Source: an uncultured Erythrobacter sp. (GTDB lineage: Bacteria > Pseudomonadota > Alphaproteobacteria > Sphingomonadales > Sphingomonadaceae). Taken from it: DNA of 64,000 nt. Position numbers and translations under genes: made by a program. Under the pieces are notes generated by a model that was not told the DNA's origin, made no database searches, and worked only from the letters and a program-made list of their open reading frames with translations. Location: positions 143,964 to 207,963 of the forward strand of contig CAJXJR010000006.1 of the NCBI GenBank assembly GCA_913055155.1. The letters are read 5' to 3'. How positions within the stretch are numbered: position 1 is the stretch's first letter; each line of letters opens with the position of its first letter. Below, one piece after another: positions 29,186 through 46,339 of this stretch.

Positions 29186-30685
29186 TTACCCCAGCTTGTC
29201 CTTCAGGATCTGGTTCACCACCGCCGGGTTGGCCTTGCCCTGCATCGCCTTCATCGTCTGGCCGACGAAGAACCCGAACAGCTTGTCCTTGCCGCCCTTG
29301 TACTGCTCCACCTTGTCCTGGTTGTTGGCCAGGATTTCATCGATCGCAGCTTCGATCGCGCCGGTGTCGCTGACCTGCTTCAGGCCTTCGGTCTCGGCGA
29401 TTTCGGCAGGCTCGCGGCCCTCTTTCAGGACGATCTCGAAGATCTCCTTCGCCTGGCCGCCGGAAATCTCCCCCTTAGCCTGCATGTCGAGGATCGCGGC
29501 CTGGCGTTCGGCGGTGGCGTTAGCGGGATCGCCCTCGTCGCCCAGCGCCTTTATCACGCCTGGCGCGACCGAAAGCGACCAGTTGGCGACCTGTGTTGCC
29601 ACGTCCTTCTCCGGCTTGCCGATGCCCTTGGCCGTGGCGGCCAGCAGCGTTTCGAAGCGGGCGAAGGTTTCCACTTCGGCGGTCAGTTCGCGCGCGTTGT
29701 AGGGCGTCAGGCCCAGTTCGTTCTCGTACCGGGCGCGCTTGGCGTCGGGCAGTTCGGGCAGCGAAGCGCGGCATTCCTCAAGGAAATCCTCGTGCAGCAC
29801 CACCGGCAGCAAGTCGGGATCGGGGAAATAGCGATAGTCGTGCGCGTCTTCCTTGCTGCGCATGGAGCGGGTGGTGCCCGTGTTGGGGTCGAACAGGCGG
29901 GTTTCCTGCACCACCGTGCCGCCGTCCTCGATCACGTCGATCTGGCGCTGCACCTCGTGCTCGATCGCCTGCATCACGAAGCGCACCGAGTTGACGTTCT
30001 TCGTCTCGGTCCGGGTGCCCAGCTCGGTATCGCCCACGCGCCGCACCGACACGTTCACGTCGGCGCGCATGGAGCCTTCTTCCATGTTGCCGTCGCACGA
30101 TCCGACATAGCGCAGGATCGAGCGCAGCTTGCGGATATAGGCCCCGGCTTCGGCGGGCGAAGTCATGTCCGGGCGGCTGACGATTTCCATCAGCGCCACG
30201 CCGGTGCGGTTGAGGTCGACATAGGACATGGTCGGATGCTGGTCGTGCATCAGCTTGCCTGCGTCCTGCTCCACGTGGATACGCTCGATGCGGATCACCT
30301 TGTCTTCCGGAATGCCGGCCTTCTCGTCGGCTTCGATCACCAGTTGCCCCTCGCCCACCAGCGGGTGGTAGAGCTGGCTGATCTGGTAGCCCTGCGGCAA
30401 GTCGGCGTAGAAGTAGTTCTTGCGGTCGAAGCGGCTCCACGTGTTGATCTGCGCCTCGATCGCCATGCCGGTGCGCACGGCCTGGCGGATGCACTCGCGG
30501 TTGGGCACGGGCAGCATGCCGGGCATGGCCGCGTCGACCAGCGAGACCTGGCTGTTGGGCTCTGCCCCGAAAGCGGTGGAGGCGCCGCTGAACAGCTTCG
30601 CCTTGCTGGTGACCTGCGCATGGACTTCAAGGCCGATCACGACCTCCCATTCGCCCGTTGCGCCGTGTACTCGATAATTGCTCAT
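29186..30685 (-). CDS. gatB: Asp-tRNA(Asn)/Glu-tRNA(Gln) amidotransferase subunit B
   Basis: The 499-residue protein opens with [13 protein letters not shown] and contains [13 protein letters not shown] and the [23 protein letters not shown] segment of GatB. The C-terminal YqeY-like helical domain binds tRNA. It phosphorylates the mischarged tRNA and hands ammonia from GatA to it. The start at 30685 is one base after the stop of the DUF1877 reading frame, so its translation may depend on ribosomes arriving from that disrupted gene. Confidence 0.96.
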
Positions 30686-30686
30686 C

Positions 30687-31264
30687 TTAATAGCTCACTG
30701 TGAAAATCACATTCTTGCCGTTTGAAGCCGCCTTGCGGAAAAAATCGACCAGACCGGAATACCAACTCTGCCAATATTCTACGGCATTGTCTGCACTTCC
30801 TGACGCGCCGAATTTCACGAGTGCGGCGCGCAATCCCCTCTCAAGGTCATTCGGAGATATGCGCTCCAAGTCTTCAGCCACCAATGCTACCGTTGAACTC
30901 GTCATCAATCCAACGGTGCCATTTTCGTCATTTCGAAGTTGCTCTTCGCCGAGGAATGCCATTTGTGCGGGCCGACGCTCAAATTCCTGCGGCTTCTTTC
31001 CAAGAAGGCGATCAAGAAAGCCCGGTTGTTCCGCAACCCTAAAAATCAGCGGTCCATCGGGATCAGTCAGGTTCAGAGCGGAGTGAATGTAGGCCCACGC
31101 ACGATCAGTCTCGCAACAATCATCTGTTCCGAATTTCGATTGCTCAAGCTCTTCTGCGATATGGTCAAACAGCCCTGCTTTGGAGACCGTTCGCAACTGC
31201 TGCAATTCACTAACTGCTGCAATTCACTCTCGTCAAGAGCGATGTGTAGCCCTAGCATCCCCAT
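30687..31264 (-). pseudogene. DUF1877 (YfbM-like) gene frameshifted by a 17-bp tandem duplication
   Basis: The ATG at 31264, two bases after gatA, opens MGMLGLHIALDESELQQL, a DUF1877-type beginning. A perfect 17-bp duplication then shifts the frame and the ribosome stops at 31073 after 64 codons. The other frame carries the rest of the family (RTVSKAGLFDHIAEELEQ, DRAWAYIHSALN, FFRKAASNGKNVIF) to the stop at 30687. Removing one copy joins the two parts into one protein of about 186 residues. By hand count the gene is about half GC against roughly 70% in gatA, suggesting acquisition. A truncated product from TTG 31205 is possible. Family function is unknown. Confidence 0.8.
31195..31228. repeat. 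17-bp perfect tandem duplication
   Basis: AACTGCTGCAATTCACT occurs at 31195-31211 and again at 31212-31228 with no change. Since 17 is not a multiple of 3, it causes the frameshift in the DUF1877 gene. Identical copies suggest a recent event. Confidence 0.95.
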
Positions 31265-31266
31265 CG

Positions 31267-32748
31267 CTACCACCACTTCTCCGGCTGCGCGGTGAACCCG
31301 GCGCGCTGTTCGATGGCGAGGCCGGCGTTCAGCACGCCTTGCTCGTCCATCGGCTTGCCCACCAGGTGCAGGCCCAGCGGCAGGCCGTCCTGGGTCAGCG
31401 TGGCGGGCACGCTCATGGCGGGCAGGCCTGCCAGCGATGCCGGAACCGAGAACACGTCGTTCAGGTACATCGACAGCGGATCGTCGGTCTTCTCGCCCAG
31501 CGCGAAGGCTGCCGTCGGCGTGGTCGGCGTCAGGATCACGTCCACCTGTTCGAAGACGTCCATGAAGTCCTTCTGCACCAGTGTGCGCACCTTCTGTGCC
31601 TGTGTGTAATAGGCATCGTAGAAGCCTGCCGAGAGCACATAGGTGCCGATCAGGATGCGGCGCTTCACCTCGTCGCCGAACCCGTCGGAACGGGTGGCGG
31701 CATACATGTCCTGCAAGCCAGCGCCCTCGGGCAGGTCGCGCAGGCCGTAGCGCACGCCGTCATAACGGGCGAGGTTGGAGGACGCTTCGGCAGGGGCGAT
31801 GATGTAATAGGCGGGCAGCGCATATTTGGTGTGCGGCAGCGAAATGTCGACCACCTTGGCCCCTGCATCGCGCAGCCACTGCTTGCCCTGTTCCCAGCTT
31901 GCCTCGATCTCCGGGTCCATGCCGTCCACGTGGTATTCGCGCGGGATGCCCACGGTCTTGCCTTCGAGGTTGGAATCCAGCGCGCCTGCCCAATCAGGCA
32001 CCGGGGCATCGATGCTGGTCGAATCCTTGGGATCGAAACCCGCCATCGCGCCCAGCATGATCGCGCAGTCTTCCACGCTGCGCGCCATCGGGCCAGCCTG
32101 GTCGAGCGAGCTGGCAAAGGCGACGATGCCCCAGCGGCTGCACCGGCCATAGGTCGGCTTGATCCCGGTAATGCCGGTGATCGCGGCGGGCTGGCGGATC
32201 GAACCGCCGGTGTCGGTACCGGTCGCCGCCGGGCACAGCCGCGCGGCCACGGCAGCTGACGAACCGCCCGAGGAACCGCCCGGCGTCAGCGTGGCATTGC
32301 TGCCCAGCTTCTTCCACGGGCTGGCGACATTGCCGAAATAGCTGGTCTCGTTGGACGAGCCCATGGCGAACTGGTCCATGTTCAGCTTGCCCAGCATGCC
32401 CGCGCCGGCATCCCACAGCTTCTGGCTGACGGTGCTTTCGTAAGGCGGCTTGAACCCTTCCAGGATGTGGCTGGCAGCAGCGGTCTGCACGCCCTTGGTG
32501 GCAAACAGGTCCTTCATGCCGATCGGCACACCGGCCATCGGGCCCAGTTCTTCCCCGGCAGCGCGCGCGGCGTCAACCTTGTCGGCAGCGGCCAGCGCGT
32601 GGTCGGGTGTGGCCACGATGAAGGCGTTGAGTTCGCTCGCGGCGGCAACGGCATCGTTATGCGCTTCGGCCACTTCGCGCGCAGTGAAGTCGCCGGCGGC
32701 CACGCCGTCGCGGATGGCCTTCAGGCCCATTTGCGTGAAATCGGTCAT
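31267..32748 (-). CDS. gatA: Asp-tRNA(Asn)/Glu-tRNA(Gln) amidotransferase subunit A
   Basis: The 493-residue amidase-signature protein has the catalytic lysine in PIGMKDLF, the cis-serine in [14 protein letters not shown] and the nucleophile in [11 protein letters not shown], the Ser-cisSer-Lys triad of Gat[30 protein letters not shown] near the end is typical of the tRNA-dependent subunit rather than a general amidase. It frees ammonia from glutamine for GatB. It lies between gatC and the inserted DUF1877 gene. Confidence 0.96.
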
Positions 32749-32863: not shown

Positions 32864-33166
32864 TCACTCGATCACCTTGGGCACGCCGAAAAAGCCGTGT
32901 TCGGCCACAGGCGCATTGGCCAGCACGTCGTCGCGGCGGCCGCCGCCGGTCAGCGGGTCGGCATCCACCACGTCGTCGCGCAGGCGCTGTTCCTGCGGGA
33001 TCACCGCCGTCATCGGCTCCACCGCGCTGGTATCGACCTCGCCCAGTTGCTCGACGAAGGCGAGGATATTGTTGAGTTCGGGCACCATGTGGTCGAGCGC
33101 AGCCTCGTCCATGCTGATGCGCGCCAGACTGGCAATCTTGGCGACTTCTTCTCGGGTTACAGACAT
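32864..33166 (-). CDS. gatC: Asp-tRNA(Asn)/Glu-tRNA(Gln) amidotransferase subunit C
   Basis: A 100-residue protein from the ATG at 33166. [36 protein letters not shown], and the C-terminal RDDVV...[17 protein letters not shown] are the GatC pattern. GatC wraps around GatA and stabilises the complex. It is the first gene of the operon gatC-gatA-(DUF1877)-gatB. A 115-base spacer with a hairpin separates it from gatA. Confidence 0.95.
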
Positions 33167-33226
33167 GGCCCTCGCGTTAGCCGCGCGGCGGCTGCGCTTC
33201 AAGCGGGTCTGTGCAGCGAAAAGCGC

Positions 33227-46093: not shown

Positions 46094-46339
46094 TTTTGCG
46101 AAGCCGCCTCCGCGGCTTCGTCCTCGCTAGACGCGCAGCAAAGCTGCGCCCGCTGCGGGCGGCCGTTCGGCCTTGCGGGCTGCTAAGCGCTGCCCGAATT
46201 GGCGCGGCTTTCGAAGGAAGGTGCAAGTCTCGGCCGCGACCAGCGACCGACCGAGCGCACGGCGCGAGCCGCAGGTGCCGCGCAGCGAAGCGGAGCGAAC
46301 AGCACCGAGGACGAAGCCGCGGAGGCGGCTTCGGAAAAC
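46093..46339. repeat. structured spacer bounded by 34-nt inverted repeats
   Basis: A 34-nt left arm (46093-46126) and right arm (46306-46339) are inverted copies with a single mismatch; the inner 28 bases are perfect. Each arm is itself a hairpin: CGAAGCCGC-CTCC-GCGGCTTCG. Between them lie further stems: GCGCAGC-AAA-GCTGCGC (46133-46149) and GGCCG-TT-CGGCC. No coding frame is convincing. It separates the convergent MATE and herA genes and may act as two terminators or be a small non-autonomous mobile element. Confidence 0.75.

Follow-up and report, generated by a model that had tools for sequence, protein, structure and literature searches.

A likely foreign, frame-broken DUF1877 gene lies in an insertion hotspot between gatA and gatB of Sphingomonadales

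The window analysed in this study, by which we mean the whole 64,000-nucleotide stretch of DNA from an uncultured Erythrobacter species, carries gatC, gatA, a DUF1877 gene and gatB in this order on its minus strand (Table 1). The stop codon of gatA (TAG, positions 31267-31269) is followed after 2 nt by the ATG of the DUF1877 gene (31262-31264), whose own stop codon (30687-30689) is separated by a 1-nt spacer from the gatB ATG, which begins at position 30685. Coordinates and Pfam matches therefore agree with the original prediction that a DUF1877/YfbM-like gene is placed exactly between the two gat genes. The downstream frame of 172 amino acids matches PF08974, named in Pfam as a family of unknown function, with an E value of 1.7e-15 over profile positions 17-163, and its 58 bits lie above the gathering cut-off of 22. 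A contrast in GC content of 50% versus 70% had also been described for this gene and its surroundings. This contrast is real but smaller, as the gatA-gatB gap has a GC content of 51% and flanking segments mostly range from 63 to 67%.

Table 1. Positions in the window of the gat genes, the DUF1877 gene and its reading frames, and the two copies of the tandem repeat.
Feature	Positions	Strand	Basis
gatB, downstream border, starting 1 nt past the DUF1877 stop	29186..30685	-	Pfam GatB_N, E 1.2e-118
DUF1877 (YfbM-like) cargo gene, frameshifted by the 17-bp duplication	30687..31264	-	Pfam; intact 184-aa relatives P0002-P0005
172-aa frame with TTG start, holding nearly all of the DUF1877 match	30687..31205	-	ORF list, Pfam and relatives
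Frame from the DUF1877 ATG, ending prematurely 388 nt before gatB	31073..31264	-	ORF list, where its start is a GTG further upstream (31276)
17-bp tandem repeat, copy 1	31195..31211		repeat scan
17-bp tandem repeat, copy 2	31212..31228		repeat scan
gatA, flanking the insertion site upstream, with stop codon TAG	31267..32748	-	Pfam Amidase, E 6.9e-146
gatC, start inferred at an internal ATG of ORF 32864-33202	32864..33166	-	gatC annotated at the same place in L162

Near its start, the DUF1877 gene contains a 17-bp sequence in two perfect, directly adjacent copies. Within the 64-kb window, this is the sole perfect tandem repeat with two full copies and a period of 10-60, and the 35 perfect tandem repeats in this range of periods that were found in 1.85 Mb of other loci include 26 with a period of 12 or 15 and none with a period of 17. 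The frame upstream of the repeat (MGMLGLHIALDESELQQL...) resembles the N-terminus of intact relatives that are 184 amino acids long (family start MGMLGLHIAL...), and past the repeat only the other frame matches these relatives. The start (MGM...) and the body of the window gene thus lie in different frames, leaving no complete ORF and a broken member of PF08974. These findings confirm that a perfect duplication at 31195-31228 is present and that it shifts the frame. They also bear out the expectation that the shifted frame would end about 390 bases before gatB, since translation from the DUF1877 ATG meets a stop codon at 31073. Judged from the frame alone, it is likely that the gene has been inactivated by the duplication.

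DUF1877 genes are rare among relatives of the window. They are present in 14 of 298 genomes of the family Sphingomonadaceae and, in a sample of seven genomes of the genus, only in the window's own genome. Reading the ORFs in the gatA-gatB gaps of the other 36 genus genomes revealed no DUF1877 gene. Given this rarity and the low GC content, it is likely that the gene was acquired horizontally, as had been suggested for it. A search of plasmids yielded seven records, with matches covering 7-22% of the query, and none of them carries this DUF1877 gene. One of them, an 853-kb replicon of Sphingomonas parapaucimobilis (L162) that is recorded as a plasmid, bears gatCAB, trigger factor and ruvX, and here a different, hypothetical gene separates gatA from gatB.

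The only near-identical database protein, P0001, exists in the same 172-aa form. It represents two member sequences on four contigs, the longest of which is 231,486 bp. The window's own contig is 207,963 bp in length, so at least one further assembly, perhaps from the same isolate, likely carries the two-copy allele. These records also bear on whether the second copy is absent from the cell and was created by an assembly or sequencing error. Such an error seems very improbable, since the same protein, and none longer, is stored for all four contigs, which may still stem from one isolate.

To place this insertion in context, we compared the lengths of gaps between core genes. Among 37 genomes of the genus, the window's own included, the gatA-gatB gap is empty in three, measures 129-130 bp in four and exceeds 200 bp in 30, with a maximum of 5,205 bp (of the 40 genomes searched, G016 and G026 lacked a match and the locus of G038 is split between contigs). 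The gatC-gatA junction served as a control, for which the window gatC was used as the tblastn query. When one genome per genus was sampled from the family (the best 57 of 96 genera, which are biased toward genera nearer the window), gaps of more than 200 bp were found at 31 of 56 gatA-gatB junctions versus 0 of 55 gatC-gatA junctions, all of which are 151 bp or shorter (Fisher p 2.7e-12). For 78 named loci, partly outside the family, the gatA-gatB gap is longer than 200 bp in 33, and the gatC-gatA gap is at most 249 bp (n=74). Three loci (L144, L160 and L211) were left out of the gap measurement because a gat end lies outside the stretch. The second control junction, rplK-rplA, is covered by one continuous match in 38 of 40 genus genomes, the other two having no match or a partial match and being unmeasured.

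The gatA-gatB junction is occupied less often in other families of Alphaproteobacteria, where gaps exceed 200 bp at 8 of 53 gatA-gatB junctions (p 1.9e-5 versus the family) and at 1 of 52 gatC-gatA junctions. Of 113 genomes in which GatB was matched, this set comprises the best 60, with entries from the family and some near contig starts skipped, and 53 of the 60 were measured because seven have no gatA inside the retrieved stretch. From these counts across genus, family and class, and from the contrast with the two control junctions on which they rest, we conclude that the gatA-gatB junction is an insertion hotspot of Sphingomonadales, that it is stronger in the family than elsewhere in the class, and that within the operon it is confined to the gatA-gatB side. 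Its occupancy is far higher than that of control core junctions, which is one property by which a hotspot can be recognised. The insertion in the window is one case of a family-wide hotspot and not the single event that was originally envisioned.

Gaps of 1.9-6.9 kb between gatA and gatB were observed outside Sphingomonadales in L143, L145 and L157 (titled Rhodopila, Acetobacteraceae and Neorhizobium). Elsewhere in the window, a dispersed repeat of about 80 bp lies downstream of rplA at positions 46105-46205 (G000:C6:190068-190168; about 1374-1453 in L284), with several further copies in the window's own genome and in congeners. An ORF for 315 amino acids is located just downstream of rplA in the own genome (L284 342-1289), and the DNA match to most listed congeners stops at the end of rplA; this is perhaps another variable site.

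A further property of hotspots, rapid turnover of gene content, is apparent from the cargo. The 37 genus genomes carry 26 cargo states, some of them defined by small unnamed ORFs, and a minimum of 31 changes is required on a tree built from the gat flanks, which may themselves recombine and which leave 12 of 34 inner branches open. Cargo differs even among close species. For example, the nearest relative of the window on this tree (L047) and the other three members of its clade carry, in place of DUF1877, a protein of 122 amino acids whose start is hydrophobic, which makes a replacement likely.

We scanned 115 of the 133 cargo ORFs of at least 100 amino acids (alignment A1), with most loci outside Sphingomonadales left out, for matches to known families. 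Among the best 25 of 31 Pfam families are Acyl_transf_3 (26), which we take to be OafA-like, PIN (7), group-1 and group-2 glycosyltransferases (6 and 5), FkbM (4), Flavodoxin_2 (4), Sulfotransfer_2 (2) and GtrA (2), and none is an integrase or transposase. The Flavodoxin_2 cargo is KefF-like according to the best 25 of 58 NCBIfam families. Matches to PHROG with E values up to 1e-8 fall into nine families, including O-acetyltransferase (25), O-antigen acetylase (19) and GtrB-like proteins (4). These nine are O-antigen- or sugar-modifying save for a methyltransferase and an unnamed family, and again no integrase or transposase is present. The cargo in this respect resembles phage genes of the oac/gtr type, which serve O-antigen serotype conversion. 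It differs from them in residing within a core operon and in the absence of any phage structural or integration family from the nine PHROG hits. A defence role for the cargo was considered and rejected, as PADLOC matched just two of the 115 ORFs (mad2).

A small ORF of about 48 amino acids was also seen between gatA and gatB in L055, L068, L078, L079, L105, L110, L168, L172 and others. It encodes a hydrophobic segment followed by an end resembling KHGEARFD..GKLIDDE, and it overlaps the start of gatB. This ORF may be the oldest resident of the site.

Neither GlnRS nor AsnRS was found above cut-off in the window's own genome, and GatCAB is therefore predicted to be essential. We sorted 146 loci into 47 coupled, 55 uncoupled and 44 empty junctions, excluding loci outside Sphingomonadales and occupied repeats of one genome. 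Junctions were called coupled if the last cargo stop codon falls in the interval from 8 nt inside gatB to 2 nt ahead of its start (one of the 47, L139, measured 17 nt inside), and uncoupled if the cargo end is further from gatB or was not resolved. Thus, at 47 of 102 occupied junctions the cargo stop overlaps or touches the gatB start, where we predict translational coupling of cargo and gatB. By position, the DUF1877 junction of the window belongs to this coupled class, as do most or all junctions with PIN pairs or with the 122-aa protein.

A promoter-like motif, TA(T/A)(C/G)(G/C) starting 16 to 11 nt before the gatB ATG, is present at 21 of the 55 uncoupled junctions, leaving 34 with neither feature. 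The motif occurs at a single one of the 47 coupled junctions and in 3 of 44 empty loci (2 of 43 once a duplicate is removed), and in 1,000 letter shuffles of the 55 uncoupled sequences it turned up 2.1 times on average and at most 8 times, versus the 21 observed. In 20 of these 21 junctions, 8-9 nt separate its end from the ATG. In 19 of the 21, CTT is found 21-27 nt before the motif, and many of them read CTTttC, about 17-18 nt, cTATCG, 8-9 nt and ATG. A looser -35-like pattern is unspecific, being found in 15 of 55 uncoupled, 2 of 47 coupled and 11 of 44 empty loci. Acyltransferase loci (n=20) include 17 that are uncoupled, 11 of them with the motif. From these sequence features, we predict that the motif is a promoter whose transcript begins at the gatB ATG, yielding a leaderless gatB mRNA. 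A search of the open-access literature for leaderless promoters in Sphingomonas returned nothing.

The original proposal was that the duplication could be a reversible phase switch on an essential operon. In such a switch, it would be gained and lost at a high rate and would tune DUF1877 and gatB. Phase variation by tandem-repeat slippage is a known mechanism, and the window indeed has a tandem repeat whose change in length shifts a frame. The repeat is perfect, its length is not a multiple of three, and gatB begins 1 nt downstream, where the promoter-like motif of the 21 uncoupled relatives is missing. Unlike in systems that vary by slippage, however, only two copies of the 17-mer are present, and neither another copy number nor a second allele was found among database proteins. 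The gene is also absent from the six other sampled genomes of the genus as well as from the other 36 genus gaps, and chance lowering of a predicted essential enzyme would presumably be costly to the cell. Comparison of the locus across relatives, which had been recommended for this proposal, thus yielded the absence of the gene from those 36 gaps but no one-copy allele. Moreover, broken or ORF-poor cargo is found elsewhere at the site: L048 and L166 carry pieces of an acyltransferase, and the gap in L075 holds only an antisense ORF of 138 amino acids. With a single allele seen and broken cargo in relatives too, the switch is not supported, and we consider it very improbable. The window DUF1877 gene is instead likely to be a decaying passenger, which accounts for the single allele, the rarity and the broken cargo elsewhere with fewer assumptions than a switch.

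Another possibility is that the operon has grown under selection, such that DUF1877 and the other occupants are retained for useful co-expression with GatCAB and recombination at this site is not unusual. This would fit the orientation of the cargo ORFs of at least 100 amino acids, of which 110 of 133 are co-directional with gat, the 47 junctions that look translationally coupled, and the recurrence of the 48-aa ORF in many species. We nevertheless judge this explanation to be quite unlikely. The remaining 23 of 133 cargo ORFs are antisense, cargo turnover is very high, and the commonest recognised cargo consists of surface polysaccharide or toxin-antitoxin genes, which have no evident link to tRNA amidation.

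Clues to how cargo arrives come from eight buried remnants of the gatB 5′ end in six loci (L056, L059, L080 and L094 with one each, L166 and L171 with two each), downstream of which an intact gatB start is present. Seven of the eight match from gatB base 1, and the weaker second remnant of L166 matches from base 17; the matches range in length from 35 to 91 nt. The remnant in L056 runs into the last 57 nt of gatA, with the two matches overlapping by 7 nt. By eye, the remnant in L080 is followed by 12 nt typical of the gatA end, an apparent gatA 3′ fusion. Also by eye, the promoter-like motif precedes the remnant in L056 and the second remnant in L171, and the end of an earlier coupled ORF is retained at those in L059, L080 and L094. 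We did not include among these scars the weak matches in L067 and L143 or the match in L156, where the gatB start is mis-set.

The buried fragments suggest that cargo moves together with gat flanks, and recombination anchored in gatB is the likely route. Together with the fusion to the gatA end in L056 and the apparent one in L080, they make it seem that new units entered at the gatB side, bringing a new gatB start and in some cases the end of gatA. The remnants would be explained best by recombination in gatB combined with end-joining on the other side. Alternatively, an integrase encoded elsewhere might recognise the 5′ end of gatB and insert cassettes that each carry a replacement gatB start and promoter, as at prfC or dusA. 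This would agree with the seven remnants that begin at gatB base 1 upstream of an intact start and with the 21 inserts that end in the promoter-like motif, and elements behaving in this manner do exist (PMC8409611). Three observations make site-specific insertion unlikely. No recombinase is found among the cargo matches (nine PHROG families and the best 25 of 31 Pfam families); the inserts consist of one or a few ordinary genes; and the remnants vary from 35 to 91 nt, with one or two running into the gatA 3′ end, which is not expected of a fixed core site.

Raised recombination in the flanking core genes, as reported for known hotspots, might show as additional divergence in the gat flanks beside occupied sites. 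No clear difference from empty sites at matched distal distance was found for gatB 5′ or gatA 3′ regions. For gatB 5′, occupied versus empty divergence is 0.176 versus 0.170 and 0.201 versus 0.195, values that derive from few empty pairs and one genome per species, which gives the comparison little power; it lends flank recombination no support but is not decisive. Since recent exchange is hidden when each species is represented by a single genome, the data revealed no donor-recipient pair. A gene transfer agent was rejected as the carrier, as GTA_TIM (PF13547) is absent from the window's own genome.

The explanation that we favour, to which we assign a probability of roughly 0.65, is that the gatA-gatB junction holds genes that differ by species, that DUF1877 is one of these genes, likely acquired horizontally and likely inactivated by the 17-bp duplication, and that entry is proposed to occur by recombination. 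Under this explanation, cargo would move as gatA'-cargo-gatB' DNA, and its entry would involve either homologous recombination in the gat flanks or a recombination event in gatB with end-joining on the opposite side. Insertions would survive only if gatB continues to be expressed, given the predicted essentiality of GatCAB. The frameshift in DUF1877 would be expected to weaken coupling to gatB, which the window's cell may tolerate or compensate for. A bolder version, which we regard as possible and advance only tentatively, holds that surface-sugar and toxin-antitoxin genes move among Sphingomonadales as integrase-free cassettes. Each unit would comprise cargo, a leaderless gatB promoter and the first gatB bases, and would land on, bury and replace the old gatB start, so that an essential gene would be restored behind each insertion and would act as a universal landing pad.

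These findings indicate that a junction inside the operon of a predicted essential enzyme is highly changeable, often with genes that likely alter the cell surface, and that many inserts show one of two repeatable features predicted to keep the downstream gatB, itself predicted to be essential, on. If the proposed explanation is correct, the site offers a directly testable case of surface-antigen gene exchange that needs no mobile-element machinery, and the junction would be a convenient place to look for surface-antigen genes in Sphingomonadales. Our search of the open-access literature found nothing on gatA-gatB as an insertion site; the one paper that it returned deals, judging by title and abstract, with the sugar phosphotransferase system of E. 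coli.

The DUF1877 gene itself belongs to the YfbM/DUF1877 family (PF08974), of which E. coli has a member, as its score is far above the cut-off; unlike intact members, the window copy is frameshifted. The elements SXT at prfC and those at dusA are integrase-carrying mobile elements. Two papers provide the closest parallels to the gat site. Hotspots between two fixed core genes are described as undergoing fast accessory turnover, often with no recognisable mobile elements, and homologous recombination in the flanks has been proposed for them (Oliveira et al. 2017, PMC5635113). The gatA-gatB site is similar in having fast-changing accessory genes and no recognised mobile element among the matches listed. 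The same work states that new genes integrate rarely within operons. The gat site differs from the hotspots described there in its position within gatCAB, where it separates the genes for two subunits of a single, predicted essential enzyme, and in the many inserts that carry an overlap with the gatB start or a promoter-like motif. Insertion of SXT at prfC and of IMEs at dusA occurs at the 5′ end and resupplies the promoter and N-terminus of the target (PMC8409611). The gat inserts are distinct from such elements in comprising one or a few ordinary genes, with no integrase among the matches listed. Buried old gatB starts (six loci) and promoter-like motifs (21 of 55 uncoupled junctions) are seen before an intact gatB, and these may reflect a comparable resupply.
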